A DNA stretch of 35,431 bases from Bacteroides sp. (GTDB taxonomy: Bacteria; Bacteroidota; Bacteroidia; Bacteroidales; Bacteroidaceae), in assembly GCA_021203405.1 (NCBI GenBank), contig JAJQBG010000111.1:1-35431 (forward strand), in the 5' to 3' direction. Of the stretch, positions 6,977 to 29,688 are shown piece by piece (position 1 is the stretch's first letter; each line of letters starts with the position of its first letter). A program made the position numbers and the translations under genes. The notes beneath the pieces are model-generated. The model was given only the letters and a program-made list of their open reading frames with translations. It ran no database searches and had not been told where the DNA came from.

Positions 6977-7777
6977 ATGTATTTAAGAACCTATTATCCG
7001 ACAGTTGTTTTATCAGATATCCATCTGGGCTCTTCCCATTCCCGGACTGAAGAGGTAACGGAGTTCCTGAAGAGTATCAATTGTGACCGGCTTATCCTCA
7101 ACGGAGATATTATTGACGGATGGCAATTGTAAAAGGGAGGTAGTAAAAAATGGAAAAGTAAACACACGGACTTTTTCAAGGTTATCATGAAAATGATGGA
7201 GAACTTCGGAACGGAAGTGATCTATGTACGGGGTAACCACGATGATTTTCTGGATAACCTGGCTCCCATGACTTTTTACAATGTAAAGATCGTCAAAGAA
7301 TTTATTCACACCTCGCACGGAAGGAATTACTATATAACTCACGGAGATATTTTTGATGCGGTGACTACCCGGATGAAATGGCTCTCTATGCTGGGAGATA
7401 TGGGTTATACTTTTCTTTTATGGATCAATAAACTTTATAATAACAGGCGGGCCCGTCAGGGAAAGCCTTACTACTCGCTATCGCAGTCTATTAAACAAAA
7501 AGTCAAGTCAGCTGTTTCCTATATTTCCGATTTTGAGAAGGAACTTGTTAATTATGCCCGTGCCCGTAAGTGCCAGGGTATTATTTGCGGTCATATACAC
7601 CATCCGGCCAATCAGTGGTATGAAGATATTCATTATCTGAATTCCGGCGATTGGGTGGAAACCCTTTCGGCACTGGTGGAGGATGAGAGCGGGAACTGGG
7701 ATGTCTTGTTATATGATGTATCCCGGTATATGGAAAATGAACCTGAAAAACAACTTTTAACTGCACCGGCTTCATGA
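6977..7777 (+). CDS. LpxH-like calcineurin-type metallophosphoesterase (in-frame stop as sequenced)
   Basis: All five metallophosphoesterase blocks are present: SDIHLG (D14, H16), NGDIIDG, RGNHDDF, the ITHGD histidine, and CGHIHHP. This is the UDP-2,3-diacylglucosamine diphosphatase (LpxH/LpxI-function) family as annotated in Bacteroidetes, acting in lipid A biosynthesis or a related glycolipid pathway; the exact substrate is inferred. Codon 52 is TAA (7130-7132) in DGWQL-stop-KGGSKKW. The frame is unchanged on both sides, so this is a point nonsense change (probably AAA to TAA), not a frameshift. The ORF track therefore splits it at 7132/7187. The start at 6977 (MYLRTYYPTVVLSDIHLG) is preferred to 6917. 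The stop overlaps the next ATG (ATGA), indicating translational coupling. Confidence 0.85.
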
Positions 7778-8911
7778 AATTTTTATTCATTGTACAGGGA
7801 GAGGGGCGTGGACACCTGACACAGGCCCTTGCTTTGGAAGAAATATTACTTCGTAACGGACACGAAGTAGTGGAGGTATTAGTAGGAGAGAGCTCTTCCC
7901 GGATACTTCCCGGATTTTTTAACCGCAATATCCGTGCTGTGGTAAAGCGGTTTATTAGTCCTAATTTTTTGCCGGCTCCTGAAAATAAGCGGGCAGATAT
8001 CAAACGTTCTGTTTGCTGGAACCTGATGCGTTCTCCGGTTTATATGCGGAGTATACGCTTTATTCGTGAACGCATTGAAGAGTCGGGAGCAGATGTGGTG
8101 ATCAACTTTTATGAACTACTTACCGGCCTTACTTATCTGTTGTACCGGCCTTCGGTGCTGCAGGTAGCGATCGGACATCAATATCTGTTCTTACATAAGG
8201 ATTTTAATTTCCCCGAACGCAAAAGTGCGGCGTTCCGTTCGCTCAATCTTTTTACGCGTCTGACCTCAATAGGAGCGGTTTCCCGCCTGGCTCTCTCTTT
8301 CCGGAGAATGGAGCACGACTCTTCACAGAAAGTACGGGTCGTACCTCCTTTGTTGCGCAGGGACTTGTTCTCGCTGGAAGCGGAATCGGGGAGCTATTTA
8401 CTGGGATATATGGTGAATGCCGGATTTGCAGAGAGTATCCGGGAGGCTCATCGGAAAAAGGCCGGATGTAAAAATGCATGTTTTCTGGGATAAAGCCGAT
8501 GCTGCGGATGTATATAAGCAGGATCCGACACTCTGGTTTCACCGGATCGATGATACGGAATTTCTCCGGAAAATGGCCGGTTGCCGTGCTTATGCCACTA
8601 CGGCAGGGTTTGAATCGGTCTGTGAAGCTATGTGGCTGGGAAAGCCGGTGCTGATGGTGCCTGCTCATATTGAACAGGAATGTAATGCCTGGGATGCCTC
8701 GCAATATAAGGTCGGTATTACAGCTGATGAGTTTGATGTGGAAAGTCTCCTTGGTTTTGTTGCTGCTCATCAACCTGATCCCGATTTCCGGGGATGGGTA
8801 GCCAATGCAGAGTTCGTATTGCTGAATGAACTGGAGCGGGCCATAGAACCTTTGAATTCCAACACTTTTCCCAATACCGAAACCTATGTTCCTGCCATGG
8901 ATCACTTATAA
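7774..8911 (+). CDS. GT28/MurG-like glycosyltransferase (frameshift as sequenced)
   Basis: The N-terminal motif FIVQGEGRGHLTQALALEE is the acceptor-side glycine-rich loop of GT-B enzymes of the MurG/monogalactosyldiacylglycerol synthase type. The C-terminal half has the donor-binding signature YATTAGFESVCEAMWLGKPVLMVP. Two ORFs (7774-8493 and 8417-8911) join at the A5 run 8455-8459: one A fewer gives EAHRK-RPDVKMHVFWDK. The restored protein is about 379 residues. It starts inside the stop of the phosphoesterase (ATGA), so the two probably act in the same envelope glycolipid pathway. Acceptor and sugar donor are unknown. Confidence 0.83.
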
Positions 8912-9133: not shown

Positions 9134-10125
9134 ATGAAGAGTAACGTGAATAGAGTATTGTTCCTGTTGTTAGCGGGAGTAACAGTGTTTTTCACTGCCT
9201 GTAAACAACCTGCCAGAGAGAGTGCCGAAACAGCTGAAAAAGAGTATTATGTATTTACTTCTTTCCATGAACCCGCTGACGAAGGGCTGCGTTTCCTTTA
9301 CAGCGAGGATGGTATAAAGTGGGATAGTATCCCGGGTATCTGGTTAAAACCGGAGTTGGGTAAACACCAGATCATAAGGGATCCCTCTATGGTACGTACA
9401 CCGGATGGAACCTATCACTTAGTATGGACTACTAGCTGGAAAGGCGATCTGGGTTTTGGGTACTCTTCTTCCAAAGACCTCATTAACTGGGAGCCGCAAC
9501 GGATGATCGAAGTAATGGCAAACGAACCGACTACGGTCAATGTATGGGCACCTGAGATCTATTATGATGATGAAACCGAAGAGTTTATGGTAGTATGGGC
9601 CTCCTGTGTTCCCGGGCGTTTTGAACGGGGAATAGAGGATGAAGATAATAACCATCGTCTTTATTATATTACTACTAAAGATTTTCAGACTATTTCGGAG
9701 ACCAAACTGTTTTATGATCCGGGCTTTAGTGTGATCGATGCTATTGTGGTAAAAAAGCTCCCAAAGATTACGTAATGGTGGTAAAGGATAATACCCGCCC
9801 CAACCGTAACCTGATGGTCGCTTTCTCTGATTCCTATACCGGACCTTATACGGCTCCTTCCGAGCCTTTTACGGATACTTTTGTAGAAGGGCCTTCCGTG
9901 GCGAAAGTGGGAAATGAATATTATATCTATTTCGATGCTTATCGGGAAATGATCTATGGTTCGGTTAGTACCACTGATTTTATTAACTTTACCGATCGTA
10001 CTCAGGAGGTTTCTATTCCTGTCGGGCATAAACACGGAACTGTTTCCAAAGCTCCGGCTTCTGTTCTGGAAAACCTGCTTAATCAAACTAAAGATAACCA
10101 ATCAACAAGATTAACGTTACAATGA
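9134..10125 (+). CDS. GH43-like glycosidase lipoprotein, BT_1021-like (frameshift as sequenced)
   Basis: The protein begins with a lipoprotein signal (VFFTAC, Cys23) and has five-bladed propeller features of family 43: the base Asp in IIRDPSMVRTPDG (D83), the repeated blade motif YSSSKDLINWEP, NVWAPEIYYDDE, and after the break the acid-type EGP in TFVEGPSVAKVGN. GH43 enzymes are mostly arabinofuranosidases and xylosidases; I cannot assign the subfamily. The ORFs 9134-9775 and 9775-10125 join at the A-run 9751-9756: one extra A gives IVVKKAPKDYVMVVKDNTRPN. Restored length is about 330 residues. The stop overlaps the next ATG (ATGA). The position matches the gene preceding the GH143-GH142 protein in the B. 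theta RG-II locus. Confidence 0.8.
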
Positions 10126-13100
10126 AATATTGTAGTAAACTAATTCTCCTTCTTGCCGCTACTCTGGGGTACACTGCTCCTGCCGTATCGCAGGAGGGAG
10201 TTCGTTATACAGGCAATGTATTATCGAACCCTGCTTATCACGACGGACAGCTGACACCGGTAGTAGGTGTTCATAACATACAACTTTTACGGGCCAACCG
10301 TGAGAACCCTACCGAAGCCAACGGTGACGGATGGACGTATAATCATCAATCTATGCTGGCCTACTGGAACGGAAAGTTCTATTACCAGTATCTTTCCGAT
10401 CCGGTGGATGAACATGTGCCACCCTCACAGACCCTGTTAATGACTTCGGAGGATGGATACAGTTGGACCCATCCGGATATTATTTTTCCCCCTTACAAAG
10501 TGCCGGACGGACATAGGAAACCTGGAAGAGAAGGTGTAACCAAAGACCTTTATACCATTATGCACCAACGGGTCGGTTTTTATGTTTCCGGATCGGGACG
10601 TCTGCTTACCATGGGGTATTACGGGATCGCTTTTGATAAGAAAGATGATCCGAACGATGGGAATGGGATCGGCCGTGTGATCCGGGAGATCTACCCCGAT
10701 GGTACCTACGGGCTGATCTATTTTATCTATTACAACCATGATTTTAACGAAAAGAATACCCTCTATCCCTATTATACCCGCAGTAAAGACAAAGGATTTG
10801 TGCAGGCCTGTAAAGAGATTTTAAACAATCCCCTTTATATGATGCAGTGGGTGGAAGAGGCCGACCGGGAAGATCCGCTGATCCCGCTCCACAAAAGTTA
10901 TAAAGCCTTTAACAACTATACCCTTCCGGACGGACGCCAGGCTGCTTTGTGGAAACATGCCCTTACCTCTATCAGTGTGGACGGAGGATATACCTGGTCT
11001 GAACCGGTAGAGCGTGTTCCCGGCTTTGTGAACAGCAATGCCAAGATCTGGGGCAACGCCTTACAGACGGTATGTATGCTACCGTATACAACCCTTCGGA
11101 GTTCCGCTGGCCGCTGGCTATTTCCCTCAGTAAAGATGGATTGGAATATACGACCCTGAACCTGACACATGGTGAGATTACTCCCATGCGTTACGGTGGG
11201 AACTATAAATCTTACGGACCCCAGTATCCGCGTGGTATCCTCGAAGGTAACGGAGTTCCGGAAGATGGGAACCTGTGGGTAACTTACAGTGTAGATAAAG
11301 AGGATATGTGGATCGCCCGGATACCGGTTCCGGTCCGGGATAAGGCTACCGCTCATGTAAATGATGATTTCTCAGCCTATACCAAGCTCGCTGATATGAC
11401 CGACTGGAATATCTATATGCCGGTAATGGCTCCTGTTACCCTCGAAAAACGGAATGGTAAAAGCTGGCTTACTCTGAGTGATACCGATCCGTTTGATTAT
11501 GCGAAAGTAGAACGTAAAATACCGGCTACCAAAGAGCTCACTGTATCCTTTGATCTGGTTGCCGGACAAAATGATAAAGGAACCCTTCAGATTGAATTCC
11601 TCTCAGAGAATGGGATTGCCTGTTCCCGCCTGGAATTCACTCCGGATGGAATATTCCGTGCCAAAGGCGGTTCCCGTTTCGGGAACCTGATAAAGTATGA
11701 ACCGGGTAAAGTATATCAGGTAGAAGCCCGTCTTTCTGTAAAGAACCGTAATATTGAGGTCTATATAGATGGGAAAAAGGCTGGTACCCGTATGTTGTAT
11801 GCACCTGTACCCTCTATTGAGCGGATTGTATTCCGCACCGGTGAGGTGAGGCAGTTCCCTACACCGGAAACACCTGCAGACCAGACGTATGATCTGCCGG
11901 ATGCGGGAAGAACAGATCCCCTCTCTTATTACAGCATTACTAATATTAAGAGTAGTTCGGCCGATGCCGATGCTACCGCTGCTATCTTGAAGTATGAAGA
12001 TTTTGCCCACTATGCGGAGTACTTTAACCGCATGGAGGATGAAAATATCATCCAGGCTATTCCCAATGCAGCCTCTTCGGAGTGGATGAAAGAGAATATT
12101 CCACTCTTTGAATGTCCGCAGGATAACTTTGAAGAGATGTACTACTTCCGCTGGTGGAACCTCCGGAAACATATCAAGGAGACCCCCGTAGGATATGCTA
12201 TGACTGAATTTCTGGTAGACCGTTCCTACGCGGATAAATACAACCTGATTGCCTGTGCGGTGGGGCATCATATTTACGAGAGCCGCTGGTTGCGTAACCG
12301 GAAGTATCTGGATCAGATCATCCATACCTGGTATCGGGGAAATGAAGGGGGGCCGATGGCTAAAATGTATAATTTCAGTTCCTGGAATATAGATGCTATC
12401 CTGAACCGCTATAAGGTAGATGGCAATAAAGAATTTCTGTTCGATATGGTCGGCGACCTGGAACGCGAGTATCACCATTGGGAAAGTACGCATCGTCATC
12501 CCAATGGACTCTATTGGCAGGGAGATGTACAGGATGGAATGGAAGAATCCATCAGTGGCGGTCGCCGCAAGCAGTATGCCCGTCCTACTATCAACAGCTA
12601 TATGTATGGCAATGCCCGTGCGCTTTCTACGATCGGTTTTCTGACGGGTAACGAAGGAGTCATGAGAGATTATGCACTCAAGGCCGATACCCTGAAGTCA
12701 CTGGTACAGGATAAACTCTGGAATCCCCGGCACGATTTCTTTGAAACACACCGGATAGACTCTTTTGCCAATGTACGGGAAGCGATCGGATATATTCCCT
12801 GGTACTTTAACCTGCCTGATGCCACTACATACGATATTGCCTGGGAGCAGATCACAGACGAAGATGGATTCTCTGCTCCTTACGGACACACCACCGCCGA
12901 GCGTCGTCATCCCGAATTCCGTTCTCATGGCGTAGGAAAATGTGAGTGGGACGGTGCTATCTGGCCTTTTGCCACTTCCCAGACACTAACAGCCATGGCA
13001 AACTTTTTGAATAATTATCCGCAGAGTATCACTTCAGACAGTGTTTATTTCCGTCAGATGGAACTTTATGTAGAATCGCAGTATCACCGGGGACGTCCCT

Positions 13101-13450
13101 ATATCGGAGAGTACCTGGACGAAGTAACCGGCTACTGGCTCAAAGGAGATCAGGAACGGAGTCGTTACTATAACCACTCTACATTCAATGACCTGATGAT
13201 TACCGGGCTGATGGGACTTCGTCCCCGCCTGGATGATACATTAGAGGTCAATCCGCTTGTCCCGGCTGACCGGTGGGATTGGTTCTGCCTGGACAATGTA
13301 CCTTATCACGGACATACTATCACGATCCTGTGGGATAAGGATGGAACCCGTTATCACCAGGGTAAGGGATTGCGTGTATATGTAGATGGTGTCCAGGTGG
13401 GACAGGCAGATACGATTACAAGAATTATCTGTCCCGATGCATTAAAGTGA
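10122..13450 (+). CDS. bifunctional GH143-GH142 RG-II enzyme, BT_1020-like (DHA hydrolase + beta-L-arabinofuranosidase; frameshift)
   Basis: A signal peptide (LILLLAATLGYTAPAVSQ) is followed by a sialidase-like beta-propeller (about residues 30-400, with blade motifs LLMTSEDGYSWTHPD and ISVDGGYTWSEPV). Next comes a beta-sandwich (about 405-560), then an (alpha/alpha)6-barrel (about 600-1105, e.g. YFRWWNLRKHI, GVGKCEWDGAIWPFATSQT). This order is that of the B. theta RG-II protein with N-terminal GH143 (2-keto-3-deoxy-lyxo-heptulosaric acid hydrolase) and C-terminal GH142 (beta-L-arabinofuranosidase). The ORFs 10122-11159 and 11072-13450 join near 11069-11074, where one base seems missing (GNALQT-G-MYATVYNPSEF). 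Restored length is about 1,108 residues. The assignment rests on architecture and neighbours, not on an alignment. Confidence 0.78.
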
Positions 13451-13534: not shown

Positions 13535-16304
13535 ATGAACAAGAGAAGAGCCATAGTCTGCTGCGCATTGTTTATCACCCTCTTATTACCGCTCAAAGCC
13601 ATTGAGGTAACCCGTCTTACCTGCGAAATGATGGAAGAGCCGCTGGCATTGGCCACTGCCACTCCTCGTTTCGGATGGCAGATGGAAGCCAAAGAGAACG
13701 GTGTATCCCAGTCTGCCTATGCCATTGAAGTATATGCAGGAGAGAACGGATTTTCCCGGTTAGTCTGGGAGTCCGGTAAAATCTCCTCTTCACAAAGCCA
13801 GCTCATACCCTACCAGGGAGAGAAACTGCTTCCCATACGACGGTATACCTGGCGCGTAAAGGTATGGGATGAAAAAGACCGGCCTTCTGCCTGGAGCCGG
13901 GAAAGCCAGTTCCGGATTGCTCCCGATGCCGCCTTTCTGGATGCCGATTGGATCGGTGCCATTGCCCACGAAGAGGCTAACCTGCCGGAAGGACGTCATT
14001 TTCAGGGCTCTGTCCTGAAAGAGCCGGAAGTAAAAGAAAAATGGGAAGCTGTGGATTCACTTTCCCGCAAAAGCATCTATCTCCGTAAAGGCTTTCAGGC
14101 AGAGAAGCAGATCCGGGAGGTAGTGGCCTATGTCTGTGGCCTGGGACACTATGAGTTCTCCCTCAATGGAAAGAAAGTAGGGGATAGTGAGTTTGCCCCT
14201 TTGTGGAGTGATTATGAGAAAACTGTCTACTACAATACCTATGATGTCACCTCTTACCTGAAAAAGGGAGAGAATATTGCCGGTGTACTGCTGGGTAATG
14301 GGTTCTATAATGTGCAGGGTGGACGGTATGTAAAACTGAAGATCAGTTTCGGGGCCCCTACACTCTTCTTTAAAATGATAGTGACCTATAACGACGGCAC
14401 CACGGAAGCGATCTGTTCCGGAAGCGACTGGAAGTATGATCTCAGTCCGATCACTTTCAACTGTATCTATGGGGGAGAAGAGTACGATGCCCGCCTGGAG
14501 CAAAAGGGATGGGATAAGGCTGGTTTTAGAGATATGAACTGGAAACCAGTCGTTGTACAAACAGCTCCTAAAGGAGTGTTAACTCCGCAGCAGGCTCCTC
14601 CGGTAAAGATTATGGAGTATTATAATATTCAGCAAGTGAACAAACTTACTGCGGAAGAGGTGGAAGCTGCTACTTTGTCTACCAAACGCACGGTAGATCC
14701 TTCGGCGGTAGCACTCGATATGGGACAAAATCTGGCAGGCTTTCCGCAGATCACCGTCAAAGGAAAGAAAGGACAGCAGGTAACGCTGTTGGTTGCTGAA
14801 TCACTAACAGACGAAGGAGCCGCCAATCAACGCCAGACCGGCCGTCAACATTATTACGTATATACCCTCAAAGGAGAGGGAACAGAGACCTGGCATCCGC
14901 GCTTCTCTTACTATGGGTTCCGGTATATCCAGGTAGAAGGGGCTGTCCTGAAAGGAGAGAAGAATCCGCAGGATCTGCCCGTTATCCAGGATCTCAAATC
15001 CTGCTTTATCTACAATTCAGCTCCGAAGATCGCTACCTTCGAATCTTCCAATCCTATATTTAACGCTGCCCATCGGCTGATCGAGAAAGCGGTCCGTAGC
15101 AATATGCAGTCTGTCTTTACCGATTGCCCCCACCGGGAAAAATTAGGATGGCTCGAACAGGGACACCTGAACGGACCCGGACTCTTTTACAATTACGATC
15201 TTACTACCTATGCACCGAAAGTGATGCAGGATATGGCTGATACCCAGCAACCCGATGGCTTCCTGCCTACCACAGCCCCCCCGGTATGTGGTATTCGAAG
15301 GACCGGGTATGGACGATTTTGCCGATTCGCCCGAGTGGGGAAGTTCCATTGTGATCCTGCCCTTTATGTATTACGAGAACTACGGAGATAACTCTTTAAT
15401 TGTAAATTACTACCGTAATATGCGCGGCTATGTGGATTACCTTACCTCCCGGGCAGATAACCACATCGTCTCTCACGGTCTGGGAGACTGGTATGACTAT
15501 GGCGATTTCAAAGCCGGTTTTTCAAAGAATACCCCCGTCCCCTTGGTGGCTACCACACATTATTACCTGGATATCTGCTATATGATCGAAGCGGCCCGTA
15601 TGGTAGGGAATGCCTGGGACGAAGCCTACTACACCCGTCTGGCTAAAGAGGTAAAAGAGGCTTTCAATGAAAAATTCTTTGATCCCGTTACCCGTCAGTA
15701 CGGAACGGCCAGCCAGGCCAGTAATGCATTACCGCTCTTTCTGGATCTGGTAGATCCTCAGTACCGGGAAGACGTACTTGGTAATCTGGTAAAAGATATT
15801 CAGGAACATGGCAACCGACTGACTACCGGAGATGTAGGGAACCGTTACCTGTTCCAGACACTGGCCCGTAATGGATTAAACGAACTTATGTATACCATGC
15901 ATAACCACGAGGAGACTCCCGGATACGGATTCCAGCTTAAGTTTGGAGCCACTACCCTGACAGAACAGTGGGACCCCCGGCAGGGATCATCCTGGAATCA
16001 CTTTATGATGGGGCAGATTGACAAGTGGTTCTTTGCTTCCCTGGCAGGTATTCAGTATGATGAAGAGCGTCCGGGATATCAACACTTTGTGATCCGTCCC
16101 GAGCCGGTAGGCGATCTTACCTATGTAAAAGCCACTCACGAATCGCTATATGGTACTATAAAAGTGGATTGGCAGCGGAAAAACGGTATCTTTACACTGA
16201 ATGTTTCCATTCCTGTTAATACATCCGCACAGGTATGGGTACCGGGCGAGAAAGAGCCCAGAGAGATCAGTAGCGGAGATTATACATTTACCACCAATTT
16301 ATAA
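13535..16304 (+). CDS. GH78 alpha-L-rhamnosidase, BT_1019-like (frameshift as sequenced)
   Basis: A signal peptide (IVCCALFITLLLPLKA) is followed by the N-terminal fibronectin-like domain (TPRFGWQMEAK ... YTWRVKVWDEKDRPSAWS), a jelly-roll with the DMGQNLAGFPQITVKGK region, and the (alpha/alpha)6 catalytic barrel with VFTDCPHREKLGWLEQGHL, the GH78 signature (Glu as acid). The C-terminal part has the typical TTLTEQWDPRQGSSWNHFMMG motif. The two ORFs meet at the C7 run 15276-15282; with six C the reading is PTTAP-RYVVFEGPGMDDFADSPEWGSS. Restored length is about 922 residues. It hydrolyses terminal alpha-L-rhamnose; in the RG-II context it probably acts on side-chain rhamnose. GH28 follows after 5 bases. 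Confidence 0.9.
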
Positions 16305-17654: not shown

Positions 17655-19630
17655 ATGAACCGTAAAAACCTATTGCTTACATTAGTTTTTTTGTGCGGTA
17701 GCAGTAGCGGCCTTGGCCCAGCCTCACCGCCAAACTTCCGACCATCAATACAGACGCTCCCTGAGTGATGTATTGAATCAGATCGAAGAGCGTTTCGGGG
17801 TTACCCTGAAATATGATATTGACACAGTCAATAAACCGGTCTTTTATGCCGATTTCCGGATCCGTCCCTATTTGGTAGAAGAGTCACTCACCAATGTACT
17901 GGCTCCCTTTGATTATAAGTTTGTCAAACAGGGGAAGGAGTCTATAAACTTAAATCTTATGAATATCCCCGTCGTACGGAAGAGGATGGAGAGAAAATGA
18001 TCGCTTACCTCAACTCACTCTATAGCGATAAAGCTTCCTGGGAAGCACGCAAAGAGTGCCTGCGTAAAGAAGTGCGTGAGAAACTGGGTATTGATGAACC
18101 CCTGGAACATGTAACAGGTAATAAACCCATTCTTTCCAAAATACGTAAATTCGACGGATATACCGTTCAGAATATTGCGTTGGAGACATTGCCCGGACTC
18201 TATGTCTGCGGTTCTATCTATACACCCACCAGTAAAGGCAAACATGCCCTCATTATGTGCCCGAACGGACACTTTGGCGACGGCTGTTACCGCAAAGACC
18301 AGCAGGAGCGTATGGGAACCCTGGCCCGTATGGGAGCCGTGTGCGTAAGCTACGACCTTTTCGGTTGGGGAGAATCACAGCTTCAGGTAGGAGCTACCGG
18401 ACACCGTTCAGTCATTGCCCACATTATCCAGGCCATGAACGGCATCCTGCTACTGGATTATATGATGACCCGCAAAGATATTGATCCCACACGTATTGGT
18501 GCCAACGGAGGTTCAGGTGGTGGCTCGCAGGTTGTATTGCTCACTGCTCTGGATGATCGCTTTACAGCGGCAGCCCCGGTAGTAAGCCTGGCCTCTCACT
18601 TTGATGGGGGCTGTCCCTGCGAAAGCGGTATGCCTGTCACCATGGCTTGTGGCGGGACCAATAACGCCGAACTGATGGCCATGTTCGCACCCCGTCCTGT
18701 ATTGATTGTTTCAGACGGAAAAGATTGGACCAGCAGTGTGCCGGAGCTGGAATTCCCCTACCTGCAACGTATCTACGGATTTTACGATGCAAAAGATAAA
18801 GTGACTAATGTACACCTGCCCGACGAAGGCCATGATTTTGGACCCAATAAACGGAATGCCGTTTACGACTTCTTTATCTCCGTATTCAACCTCGACCGCA
18901 GTAAACTTGATGAGAGCAAAGTAACCATCGAACCGGAATCAGCGCTGCTCAGTTTTGGCGACCGTGCCGAAGACCTTCCGGCCAATGCCATCCGTACCTT
19001 TGACAATGCTACTATCTATTTTGGTACCAAGGTAACTTCACACATGAAGTCCGATGCTGCCATTGAAAGAAAGGCGCAGGGCTGGGTCGCTTCCCTGGAA
19101 CTGAACGATGTCAAGAAAGAGGGCTATGTAGTGACCCTGATCTATAACCACCTGCGTGCCGTGCGCGACTGGCATAACAACCATCCTTTTACCTTAGTTC
19201 CGGAAGGAGTAAATCCTCACAACGGAGAGCCCCTTTCTCAGTTAGACCGGGAGATGATCATTGACTCTACCATGCCGGCCGAAGTACACAATAAACTTAT
19301 GAACGGTATGCGTAGGGTACTTACCGAAGAGCAGGTAGAAGCAATCCTGGATAAATACACCATTGGTAAAGTAGCTTTCACCCTGAAAGCTTATAAAGAG
19401 ATCGTTCCCGATATGACTCCTGAAGAAGAGGCATTTGTGGTGGAGAACCTCAAAACAGCCCGCGAAAAAGCCATTGATTATAAAATATGAATCAAATATC
19501 TGCTGTGTTCAAAATGTATAAGAACCGGATTGAACGCTATTTCAATGATAACGGACGTAACTGGAGAGATATGTACCGGGATTATAATGAAAAAATGAGG
19601 GCAGAAAAGAAGAAAAAAGAACAGCAATAA
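17655..19630 (+). CDS. alpha/beta-hydrolase pectin methylesterase with C-terminal DUF3826, BT_1017-like (three frameshifts)
   Basis: Three pieces join into one protein of about 658 residues. The T7 run 17686-17692 (one too many) breaks the signal peptide: MNRKNLLLTLVFCAVAVAALAQ after correction. A short A-run at 17952-17954 (one too few) joins the STN-like N-terminal domain (SLSDVLNQIEERFGVTLKYD) to KSYEYPRRTEEDGEKMIAYLNSL. A third A-run, 19482-19485 (one too few), joins DYK to MNQISAVFKMYKNRIERYF, the expected end of DUF3826. The hydrolase core has the nucleophile Ser in NGGSGGGSQ, an acid in SDGKDWT and His in PDEGHDFGP. In B. theta the equivalent enzyme is an RG-II-linked pectin methylesterase, which would release methanol. 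It follows GH28 by 11 bases and ends the operon. Confidence 0.82.
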
Positions 19631-19658: not shown

Positions 19659-19690
19659 CAGCCGGTTCCTTAGGAGCCGGCTGTTTGTTT
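19659..19690 (+). terminator. strong rho-independent terminator at the end of the RG-II operon
   Basis: CAGCCGGTTCC pairs with GGAGCCGGCTG as an 11-bp stem (one T-G pair) around a TTA loop, followed by TTTGTTTG. It lies 29 bases after the corrected esterase stop. Confidence 0.82.
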
Positions 19691-19733: not shown

Positions 19734-19769
19734 ACACGGTAAACTAAATTGCCATTGTCTTGACGTATC

Positions 19770-19876
19770 TGTGCCACCTTGTTGGCACAGTTGTGCCATC
19801 ATATTGGAATTATTGTGCCACCAAAGTGGAATTATTGTGCCATCGTTATGGAATGGTGTGCTATCGGGGTAGCAAA
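19770..19876. repeat. tandem array of five spaced palindromes, 22-bp period
   Basis: Units start at 19770, 19792, 19814, 19836 and 19857 (steps 22, 22, 22, 21). Each reads TGTGCCA-N6-TGG(A/C)A or close: TGTGCCA-CCTTGT-TGGCACA is a perfect 7-bp dyad; then TGTGCCA-TCATAT-TGGAA, TGTGCCA-CCAAAG-TGGAA, TGTGCCA-TCGTTA-TGGAA, and TGTGCTA-TCGGGG-TAGCA, whose compensatory change keeps the dyad. The centre N6 varies while the arms are kept. The array lies 166 bases upstream of the MtaA-like gene and downstream of a terminator. A period near two helical turns suggests repeated protein-binding sites; the function is unknown. Confidence 0.75.
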
Positions 19877-20041: not shown

Positions 20042-21164
20042 ATGAAAGATACCTTTGATTTCTCCCTCCCGGACTCGCAGGCCACTGCGGTAGAACCGAT
20101 AAAACCCGAAAAATTTGACTTTGAATCTTATCAGGCTTATGAGCAGGGGTTACTTGCCCGATGCAAAAAATTCTGGGAAAGTGATAGTGGAGTACTGGTT
20201 CACCGCCGTATGCGGGTCCAGGAAGTATTTTCCTATGATTCCAAAGATATGGAAAAGTCACTGGGGTGGCAGTTAGGAGCCTTGTGGAAAAGTATGGCTT
20301 TCCAGGCTGATGTTCCTAACTTCCTGGAGCCGTGGTATGGTCTGGGAACTATTGCATCCGCCTTTGGCTTCGACTATGTATGGAGCGAAGGACAAGCCCC
20401 CGCTATAAACGGTCATTTCGATTCGGTAGAGCAGTTACTGGCTTATGAAGCAAAACCCGTAGAAAAGACCCCGATCGGAAAGCATACTCTCGATATGATC
20501 GATTACTTTCTGACAAAAACCCAGGGAAAACTTCCTCTCTCTTACTCCGATATACAATCCCCCTTGAATATTGTAGCGAATATTGTAGATTCCAACCAGT
20601 TCTATATGGACTTTATGCTCAATCCGGATCTCATTCACCAGGCTTTTGACCGTACTGCCGCTCTTTTTGTAGATTATATGAAGATACAGCAACGAATGAT
20701 CGGAGATGCTCTGGCAAAACCCGGACACGGGTTTGCCTCTTCCCGCTGTTTTGATGGAATGGGTATGAGTGACGATAATATTGTGATGCTCTCTAACGAC
20801 ATGTATAACGAATTTGCTGTTCCGGCCTTTATCAAAGCCTGCACTCCTTTTGGAGGGGGGCCACTCCTGTGGCGACTGGTCGGGAAAGAAAGAGGATATA
20901 GTGAAGATAGATGGGATCCGGATGGCAGATGGTGCCTTCTCCAAAGCAACCGATCCGAATGCCAATCCTACCGGTGGGTTTGCAGATACCTTTGCCGGTA
21001 CCGGAGTGGTACTGAATGCACGCATCGTCGGTACTCCGGATGTGGTAGAGGAGAAAGTACGTGAATTATGGAAACCCGGGATGAAACTGATCGTGGTTAC
21101 CTATTGCGATACACCGGAAGAACAGAGCAGGGTCTATCAGAAAATCCATGAGATATGCCGGTAA
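20042..21164 (+). CDS. uroporphyrinogen-decarboxylase-superfamily, MtaA-like methyltransferase (frameshift as sequenced)
   Basis: The fold family is indicated by the N-terminal PEKFDFESYQAYEQGLLARCKKFW and the DIQSPLNIVANI region. The two ORFs 20042-21064 and 20814-21164 join at the G6 run 20855-20860; with five G the reading is KACTPFGGGHSCGDWSGKKEDIVKIDG. This restores HSCG and, about 79 residues later, Cys in VVTYCDTPEEQ, the H-x-C-x(75-80)-C zinc ligand set of MtaA/MtbA-type corrinoid:coenzyme methyltransferases, which true HemE lacks. Restored length is about 373 residues. No signal peptide, so cytoplasmic. It overlaps the hexuronate transporter gene, so they are co-expressed. The substrate is unknown; methanol or O-methyl-sugar methyl transfer is only a hypothesis. 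Confidence 0.75.
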
Positions 21165-26670: not shown

Positions 26671-29600
26671 ATGAGACATACAAAACTACTTATTGCGGCT
26701 TTTCTGGCAGTTTACCTGCTTACCTCTCTCCCCCTGCTGGCTCTTGACTTTAAAGAGAACAGACGGGCAAGATACAATTTTAACAGTGAATGGCTCCTTT
26801 ATATCGGCGACCTGCCCGGAGCCGGACAGGCACGTTTTGATGACAAGTCGTGGGAAATGGTCACACTTCCCAGGGCTTATAACGAAGACGAAGCCTTCCG
26901 GGTAGCCATTGACGACCATACCGGGGGTATCGTCTGGTACCGTAAATACTTCAGGCTACCCGGTAAAGATAGCGGAAAAAAGGTTTTCCTGGAATTTGAA
27001 GGGATCCGTTTCGGCGGTGAGTTCTATGTGAACGGACAAAAGATCGGCATCCACGAGAACGGGGTCATGGCCTTCGGGTTTGACATCACCGACTATGTGA
27101 ACTTTGGAGGCAAAGAGAATGTCATTGCCATTCGCATTGGCAACTCCTGGGATTATAAAGAGAGCACCACAGATAGCCGTTACCAGTGGAACGATAAAAA
27201 TTTCAACGCCAATTACGGAGGTATTCCCAAAAATGTATACCTCCATGTTACCGATAAGTTATACCAGACACTCCCGCTCTATACTAACTTACAAACTACC
27301 GGTACCTATATCTATGCCCGGCAGATCCATATTTCTGAAGCCAGTGCTACCATCCATGCCGAATCAGAGGTGAGGAACGAATATCGTACCGAAAAAGAGT
27401 TCTGTTTTGAAGTTCAGATCGAAGATATGGAGGGTAACATCGTAAAAAAGATCGACGGGCCTCTGACCCGGCTGCAACCCGGTGAGACCGAAATAGTGAA
27501 AGCACAGGGTAAGATGGAGAATATCCACTTCTGGAGCTGGGGCTACGGTTATCTCTACAATGTATATACCACCCTGTATGTCAATAACAAACCGGTCGAT
27601 GTGGTAAAGACCCGCACCGGCTTCCGGAAAACCGCTTTCCGGGACGGTCTGGTTTACCTCAATGACCGGGTGATCCAGCTGAAAGGATATGCCCAGCGTA
27701 CCAGCAACGAGTGGCCTGCTGTGGGAATGTCGGTTCCTGCCTGGCTTAGTGATTACAGCAACCGGCTTATGGTAGAGAGTAACGGTAACCTAGTGCGCTG
27801 GATGCATGTAGCTCCCTGGAAACAGGATGTAGAGTCGTGCGATAGGGTAGGGCTTATCCAGGCGATGCCTGCCGGCGATGCCGAGAGAGATGCCAAGGGC
27901 CGCCAGTGGGAACAACGGGTAGAACTGATGCGCGATGCCATTATCTATAACCGTAACAACCCCAGTATTCTTTTTTATGAATCAGGTAATCAGGGAGTCA
28001 GTGAAGAACACATGGCCGAAATGAAAGCACTCCGTGATAAATACGATCCTTACGGAGGACGTGCTGCCGGTTCACGCGAAATGCTGGATAGTTATATAGC
28101 CGAATATGGCGGAGAGATGCTCTATATCAATAAAAGCGCCCGCCATCCTATGTGGGCTATGGAGTATTGCCGGGACGAAGCCCTTCGTAAATACTGGGAT
28201 GAATATTCTTATCCTTATCACAAGGATGGCGAAGGGAACGCCGCCTATAAATCAACGGTGACCAATACTACCCATACACAGGTTGATGCCAGTCCTTATA
28301 ACCGTAACCAGGACTCTTTTGCGGTGGAGACCGTCATCCGTTGGAACGACTATTTCCGGCTACGTCCCGGTACCGGGGCAGAGTCAGTTCGGGAGGTGTT
28401 AATATTATCTTCTCCGATAGCAATACTCATTTCCGCGGAGTAGAAAATTACCGCCGTAGTGGTGAAGTGGATGCCATGCGCATTCCCAAAGATGCCTTCT
28501 ACGCTCATCAGGTAATATGGGACGGTTGGGTCGATATTGAGAATGACCGTACCCATATTGTTGGTCACTGGAACTATACCCCTGAAGTAAAGAAAGATAT
28601 CTATGTTATCTCTTCCGGTGAACAGGTAGAACTCTTTATCAACGGGAAGTCACAAGGAATGGGAGAGAGAAGCCATACCTTCCTCTTTACCTTTAAAGAT
28701 ATCCGGTGGGAGGCCGGTAAAATAGAAGCTATCAGCTACGATGCTTCGAAAAAAAGAACTCAGCAGACACGAAATAAAGACAGCCGGCGATCCGGCCGCG
28801 ATCCGTCTTACCCTGATGCAGGCCCCTGATGGTTTCAAAGCCGATGGTGCCGATCTGGTATTGGTAGAGGTAGAAGTCGTAGATAAAGAGGGTATCCGCC
28901 ATCCGCTGGCTAACGACCTGATCTCTTTTGAACTCACCGGCCCGGCCGAGTGGCGGGGAGGGATTGCCCAGGGTCCCGATAATTATATTCTTTCTACCGA
29001 TCTTCCCGTAGAGTGTGGAGTGAACCGTGCTTTTATCCGCTCTACCACTAAAAGCGGTAAAGTTACCCTGAAGGCTACTGCCGCGGGACTTTCTGAAGCT
29101 ACCCTAACTTTCAACGCTATCCCTTTTAAACAGAATAATGGCCTTTCCACCTATATTAGCGGTGATTATCAACCCAGTCACCTTTCACGGGGTGCAACAC
29201 CGGCCACACCCGCTTTCAAACCCTCCCGCAGGAACGTAAAGATAGTAGATGCTATGGCCGGAGCCCACGAAGAGCAGGCACGGACCAGTTTTGATGATAA
29301 CGAACGTACTACCTGGGAGAACGACGGCAGGTTGAGAACCGGCTGGATCATTTACGAACTGGAGCGGGATGCTGAGGTGGCTGAGATCGATCTGAAACTC
29401 TCCGGCTGGCGCCGGCGCAGTTACCCGATCCGGATCTTTGTAGACGATAAAGAGGTCTATACAGGCAATACCCCGCAGAGCCTGGGTTATATATCCATTC
29501 CCATAACTCCTACCCAGGGACGTTTCGTCAAAATACAACTCAGCGGAGCCAGCTCCGAGGAGGATGCTTTCGGCGGACTGGTAGAGGTAACCGGTAAGAT

Positions 29601-29688
29601 CGAGTCGGATGTAGTAGGGAACAAAAACACCGATGCCAAAGGCCAGCTGGCTATTGTTGAAATAGATATACACGAAGCGATCCGATAG
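26671..29688 (+). CDS. GH2-family glycosidase with discoidin-like C-terminus, copy A (two frameshifts)
   Basis: A signal peptide (LLIAAFLAVYLLTSLPLLA) is followed by the GH2 sugar-binding domain (VTLPRAYNEDEAFRVAID, WYRKYFRLP, FYVNGQKIGIHENGVMAFGFDITDYV), an Ig-like domain, and a TIM barrel. Next come DUF4982- and Ig-like modules and an F5/8C-like domain (SFDDNERTTWENDGRLRTGWIIYELE). The usual acid/base motif is GNQ here (Q441 in FYESGNQGVS) instead of GNE, while the nucleophile region AMEYCRDE keeps its Glu. The ORFs join at the G4 run 28375-28378 (one G short: RPGTG-GRVSSGGVNIIFSD) and the A7 run 28749-28755 (one A extra: YDASKKELSRHEIKTAGD). Restored length is about 1,005 residues. It is a close tandem paralogue of the next gene. 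Confidence 0.86.

Follow-up and report, generated by a model that had tools for sequence, protein, structure and literature searches.

The array of five spaced palindromes that occupies positions 19,772 to 19,874 of the window, by which we mean the whole 35,431-nucleotide stretch of DNA analyzed here, is most probably one of the scattered copies of an array that is recognized by a DUF6078-family protein (PF19555), the array and the protein making up a REP/RAYT-like two-part system in which binding of the former by the latter is predicted. The array belongs to a previously undescribed family of palindrome arrays, located between genes in Bacteroides and Parabacteroides.

All units of the window array lie on the forward strand. 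The five palindromes start (TGCCA or TGCTA) at positions 19,772, 19,794, 19,816, 19,838, and 19,859, that is, with steps of 22, 22, 22, and 21 bp, which confirms the period given in the preliminary description. Unit 1 (TGCCA-ccttgt-TGGCA, 19,772–19,787) has fully symmetric arms, the arms TGCCA/TGGAA of units 2 (TGCCA-tcatat-TGGAA, 19,794–19,809), 3 (TGCCA-ccaaag-TGGAA, 19,816–19,831), and 4 (TGCCA-tcgtta-TGGAA, 19,838–19,853) are not exact complements, and unit 5 (TGCTA-tcgggg-TAGCA, 19,859–19,874), at the 21-bp step, does carry the matching changes in both arms that had been noted earlier. A decayed sixth unit (TGCCA-ttgtct-TGACG, 19,750–19,765) lies one step upstream. The pattern TGTGCCA-N6-TGG, with at most one mismatch, was found seven times in the window (1.5 expected; no shuffled sequence reached seven), and the array scored 86–87 at period 22 with TRF. 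Along the array, each TKCCA is followed after 11 bp by a TGGMA and vice versa, loop and link comprising six free bases each; because the link between units is as regular in length as the loop, the conserved feature is a series of half-sites every 11 bp in alternating orientation. The general grammar of the family is the same: TGCCA/TGGCA half-sites alternate each 11 bp with a period of 22, usually in four units, and the bases between them are hypervariable; in the window the half-sites are often of the variant TKCCA/TGGMA.

The array lies downstream of a forward-strand gene (17,997–19,490) whose product has an alpha/beta-hydrolase-like N-terminus and a DUF3826 C-terminus, of a 47-amino-acid open reading frame (ORF; 19,487–19,630, +) recognized from sequence and alignment, and of a terminator-like hairpin (AGCCGG...CCGGCT followed by a T-rich stretch; 19,659–19,690, +); it is followed by an MtaA-like (URO-D) gene (20,042–21,164, +). 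Only one relative with this gene order was found, the sister genome G522 (95% protein identity), which possesses the small ORF, the hairpin, and the array itself, the latter with changed loops and fewer units: the counterpart of the degenerate upstream unit reads TGCCA-tcacct-TGACA and unit 5 is missing. Absence from close relatives of equal gene order, which according to the preliminary description would refute its reading, was thus not observed. The MtaA-like gene of the window is frame-shifted relative to its G522 ortholog and is five bases shorter than the part of the latter that is intact. Elsewhere in the window, series of same-strand ORFs that overlap in different frames (7,774–8,911, 9,134–10,125, 10,122–13,450, 13,535–16,304, and 26,671–29,688) suggest several frameshifts, probably due to sequencing or assembly errors of the draft genome.

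The draft genome that contains the window (G000; 4.0 Mb, 427 contigs) yielded 52 matches to the half-site pattern (one mismatch at most), corresponding to about nine arrays, versus a single match to a reversed control pattern. Array-rich genomes are only a few among the 295 examined in the order. In the genus of the window, 30 of 61 genomes had at least one match, with 0 to 123 matches per genome, and 9 of the 125 genomes from a second family, to which G205 belongs, were positive for a stricter pattern. A strict four-unit pattern, run against 84,980 species genomes, matched 113 stretches; the titles of the 80 that were tabulated all refer to Bacteroides, Parabacteroides, Mediterranea, Bacteroidaceae, or Tannerellaceae, and include the species B. 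faecis, B. cutis, B. oleiciplenus, B. stercorirosoris, B. nordii, P. goldsteinii, and P. faecis. A phage origin was rejected, as no strict array was found in 2.9 million viral contigs. Among 154 distinct arrays, 114 have four units, 26 have five, 10 have three, and four have six to eight. The first half-site of an array is TGCCA and the last is TGGCA; a further one, 11 bp beyond, is rare (12/306 ends), and outside the half-sites most arrays show only the outer bases TTT(G)...(C)AAA. Several arrays of the window's genome (L012, L020, L021, L024, and L014) have further short flanks in common, e.g., CTTCCTGATAGAT and GGCTCTGACT, which suggests that arrays were copied with some flank. Two contigs of this genome end, just beyond an array, in the same 54-bp sequence (GTCTGTTAACGTTTTTAGTTGACTG...; L011, 3,016–3,069, and L012, 4,328–4,381), as if a repeated element adjoined the arrays; an insertion sequence was considered as a partner and rejected, no further copy of the 54-bp sequence being present in the draft.

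The placement of the arrays is far from uniform. Out of 140 arrays, 59 lie between convergent, 70 between co-directional, and 11 between divergent genes, versus 19, 92, and 71, respectively, of 182 array-free gaps at the same loci (non-divergent placement, Fisher odds ratio 7.5, P = 4e-11). In 115 of 140 cases the closest gene end is a stop codon, in 25 a start codon; the median distance is 47 bp for stops and 142 bp for starts. Arrays of this family are not promoter operators. Random genome-wide scatter as an inert repeat, which according to the preliminary description would also refute its reading, is borne out by half: the arrays are scattered, but they do not look inert.

Clustering of the neighboring ORFs brought out one 144-amino-acid protein, encoded next to the array at 14 loci in 14 genomes, at a distance of 4–72 bp and always with the 3' end of its gene facing the array. 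This protein belongs to the DUF6078 family. Using one scoring rule blind to the half-site (array within 260 bp downstream), we found a palindrome array of 22-bp period downstream of 46 of 56 DUF6078 genes and upstream of none, and the same rule gave no downstream array for 43 other ORFs of the same loci. When the period was varied, 22 bp gave these 46 arrays, 23 bp gave two, and 18–21 and 24–26 bp gave none. Arrays were also present behind 30 of 40 DUF6078 genes fetched by protein search only, and behind all eight genes (one array being weak) of loci obtained later, out of sample, from plasmid- or phage-labeled records. One of these eight, on a Treponema saccharophilum plasmid, encodes a helix (TKYYRFYREE) similar to that of the GTTTC type described below and is followed by three GTTTCA units with the lowest score of the eight, 28. 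Another record, NZ_OY725951.1 (L317), a 25.7-kb Bacteroides finegoldii "plasmid", contains a DUF6078 gene with a TGCCA array, and may be a mislabeled chromosomal circle or reflect real mobility.

The association also holds at the level of genomes. A close homolog of the TGCCA-type protein (over 100 bits) was found in 16 of 61 Bacteroides genomes, all 16 of which had at least four array matches, versus only 4 (G000, G298, G315, and G334) of the 45 genomes without one (16/0/4/41, Fisher P = 2e-11). In G298, a more distantly related DUF6078 gene is followed at 30 bp by an array of four units; G315 and G334 show some TKCCA/TGGMA matches, the close homolog being absent. Behind some close homologs (L239, L244, and L271–L278) the array is absent or present in degenerate form only. 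Conversely, arrays are present in G205 (99% complete) and G470, in which no DUF6078 gene was found. A Tannerellaceae genome (f105/g106; L280, G387:C1:4179957) carries a truncated DUF6078 gene of the TGCCA type, from whose own array units have been lost, with 17 strict array matches elsewhere in the genome; this is likely a recent loss of the partner.

All 49 members analyzed by profile search match DUF6078 (160.6 bits, cut-off 27), and none of them matches a transposase family of Pfam-A. A match to an Xre-like helix-turn-helix (HTH) domain (PF20432) remains below its cut-off (22.5 vs. 25.8 bits; 7 of 49 members at E-value ≤ 0.01). The AlphaFold2 model computed from 49 sequences (pLDDT 94, pTM 0.81), which follows an earlier one based on 19 close homologs with a weak N-terminus, contains helices at residues 83–97, 99–107 (containing RRTYYRVRK), and 114–126, between two strands. 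Four near-invariant cysteines (C17, C22, C28, and C59) suggest a zinc site. Foldseek searches of the PDB with both models returned no significant solved relative, the HTH-like entries in the nonsignificant lists being restriction-modification (R-M) controllers and a lambda-repressor-like protein; PDB sequence, NCBIfam, and PADLOC searches gave nothing for DUF6078, and none of the open-licence papers searched mentions the family.

DUF6078 paralogs with different recognition helices are followed by different half-sites: TGCCA/TGGCA, TTTAC/GTAAA, GTTTC/GAAAC, GTTTCC/GGAAAC, TTTTCC/GGAAAA, and GTCCC/GGGAC, in an unchanged 22-bp architecture. Array similarity correlated with helix identity (Mantel r 0.71, and 0.33 in a partial test that controls for the remainder of the protein; none of 2,000 permutations as high), a correlation partly confounded by phylogeny, and the helix window was the best predictor of array similarity among all windows of the protein. 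GTTTC-type arrays are dispersed as well, in 18 of 61 genomes, with the same 3' placement (0/20 divergent). At one locus (L262, G334:C61), what lies behind the DUF6078 gene is an asymmetric tandem repeat of 22 bp (TTCAGTCGTAGTGGGA) rather than a clean palindrome, possibly a directly repeated site.

Comparison of 32 orthologous array pairs gave 12.3% differences in flanks, 1.1% in half-sites, 37.5% in loops, and 35.9% in links, the half-site figure being partly ascertained, as loci were found by half-site patterns, and the flanks being partly coding. For 11 close pairs, with the nearest 50 bp taken as flank, these values were 9.8%, 0.2%, 20%, and 12%, respectively, the contrast between loops and flanks (20% vs. 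10%) being modest and uneven between pairs. Given the ascertainment and the partly coding flanks, the robust statements concern the fixity of half-sites and the discrete changes. Units are gained or lost between species in 22-bp steps. Moreover, one array (L184) and its B. oleiciplenus counterpart (L203), with identical flanks of 52 bp on each side, differ by two exact inversions, namely, the flip of a 6-bp loop (atgcag to ctgcat) and that of a 28-bp segment including both links, with breakpoints at half-sites. A similar flip distinguishes L119 from L125, and the same loops recur in both orientations within a genome above the expectation from composition. These inversions may be driven by DUF6078 or by ordinary hairpin slippage. 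Base pairing across loop and link was set aside, since extended complementarity is confounded by between-array differences.

The window array may itself be an orphan copy, because no DUF6078 gene was found in its genome or in the sister G522 (drafts 84% and 79% complete, respectively) and because, among the genomes compared, G000 has the most degraded half-sites: 56% are exact TGCCA, the main variant being TTCCA, versus 75–93% exact in partner-bearing genomes and 73% in G205, which lacks a detected DUF6078 gene. Such degradation fits decay after loss of the partner; alternatively, a missing or unusual partner that reads TKCCA is possible.

The most probable explanation is thus that, in species that have retained the system, a DUF6078 gene of the matching type has an array directly behind its stop codon, further copies being intergenic and mostly 3' of genes. 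The C-terminal HTH of the protein would read one half-site of 5–6 bp, and about eight subunits could sit side by side, presumably in a cooperative manner, on one face of the DNA, the alternating half-sites recurring each 11 bp and 22 bp being close to two helical turns; the bases in between would be unread, so that they may drift or flip. The dimer-operator array of the preliminary description would keep its phasing on one face, its constant arms, and its free centers; it loses its assignment to the MtaA-like and transporter genes, since arrays are dispersed and 3' of genes, and the likely binder is the DUF6078 protein instead of a local regulator. As to physiological role, the array may be a REP-like element whose presence at the ends of genes is tolerated, or it may act there as a transcriptional roadblock. 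A bolder version, in which DUF6078 and its array would constitute a self-maintaining element of a new class, whose small zinc/HTH-type non-transposase protein spreads, repairs, and rearranges its own 22-bp-phased arrays over the chromosome (with precise inversion at half-sites) and whose helix/half-site code could be read, seems to us rather unlikely.

The strongest competing explanation, plausible although we consider it somewhat doubtful, shares the binding step and differs in function: DUF6078-bound arrays would be selected regulatory sites acting as roadblocks or insulators at gene ends, halting read-through, chiefly where genes converge, and the array that follows the DUF6078 gene would limit the neighbor of that gene. 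The excess of convergent gaps, the nearness of stop codons, and the lack of divergent GTTTC-type arrays are in agreement with it, as is the fact that arrays hold their locus between species, with near-fixed half-sites, while flanks diverge by up to 25%. However, presence is patchy among species of one genus, a terminator-like hairpin already precedes the window array, and a 3' bias is equally expected of any promoter-avoiding repeat. Position 3' of genes would also suit units acting as RNA, as tandem hairpins (TGCCA/TGGCA stem, six-base loop) that affect mRNA stability or termination in 3' UTRs, and a P. goldsteinii array indeed folds far better than shuffled sequences (z = −6.8). This is nonetheless improbable, given that the window array reaches a z of only −1.7 (+ strand) with mismatched arms in units 2–4, that other DUF6078 arrays with weak stems (GTTTC/GAAAC) show the same strict 22-bp period, that the half-site letters and not merely their pairing are conserved, and that the array has no match among the structured RNA families of Rfam.

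Multi-site arrays that are dispersed and have a putative DNA-binding protein of their own likewise recall chromosome-organising or centromere-like sites (cf. parS, matS). Occurrence in some species of a genus but not in others, the several paralog types per genome, and the lack, in neighbor clustering, of a recurrent second gene (e.g., an ATPase) beside DUF6078 make such a site bound by DUF6078 slightly less likely still than RNA hairpins. Least likely of all, and by our estimate very improbable, is that the array consists of operators through which a local dimeric regulator controls the adjacent MtaA-like and transporter genes: it does precede the MtaA-like start by about 190 bp, and G522, where the gene order is identical, has retained it, but other arrays of the family have unrelated neighbors, avoid divergent promoters, and sit at the 3' ends of genes.

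Among known systems, the closest organization is that of REPINs and RAYTs, whose defining transposase is absent here. REPs and REPINs are dispersed extragenic palindromes with a single-copy RAYT gene that has the same repeat beside it; several repeat types may coexist in a genome, each beside its own paralog, with co-variation of repeat and protein, and RAYTs are Y1 tyrosine transposases related to IS200/IS605 (PMC3116915). The arrays described here are similarly palindromic, extragenic, and dispersed, with the repeat beside a cognate DUF6078 gene and different repeats beside different paralogs. In contrast, DUF6078, which matches PF19555 and weakly an Xre-like HTH, is no Y1 (HUH) transposase, REP doublets are replaced by about four palindromes at a 22-bp period, and the array linked to a gene always lies downstream of it. 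BrickBuilt, a minisatellite/MITE of Porphyromonas gingivalis, is another intergenic repeat of Bacteroidales; according to the parts of its description used here (PMC4596501), it consists of 23-nt direct repeats with a leader and a tail that terminate in inverted repeats, has a copy number of 1 to 22.8, and occurs about 19 times per genome. Compared on that description and not by unit sequence, it resembles our arrays in its short-period tandem units with conserved and variable positions; it differs by its direct repeats, for which those parts describe no linked protein, versus head-to-head half-sites at 22 bp, mostly in four units, with a DUF6078 gene. The 23-nt period is found in just two gene-linked arrays. 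As regards leader and tail segments, some G000 arrays have flanks in common, most arrays showing just the outer bases given above.

The weak PF20432 match and the weak, nonsignificant fold resemblance of the C-terminus also bring DUF6078 near Xre-like HTH regulators and R-M controllers (C.Kpn2I, C.BclI). Those proteins bind one or two operators in promoters, unlike arrays that are located behind a gene and genome-wide. None of the known repeat-protein systems matches the protein feature that defines the DUF6078-array system, and for this reason we set the latter apart as a new kind; if any repeat with a linked protein were counted as one kind, it would be a variant of that kind.

These data unite an intergenic repeat and a protein family, both of them anonymous so far, in one testable system of common gut bacteria, and give DUF6078 a likely target and a testable recognition code, for which the natural series of paralogs differing in helices and half-sites is ready-made. 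Furthermore, the position of the arrays at gene ends, their fixed half-sites with flipping or changing centers, and their patchy occurrence bear on the upkeep and the role of dispersed repeats in bacteria.
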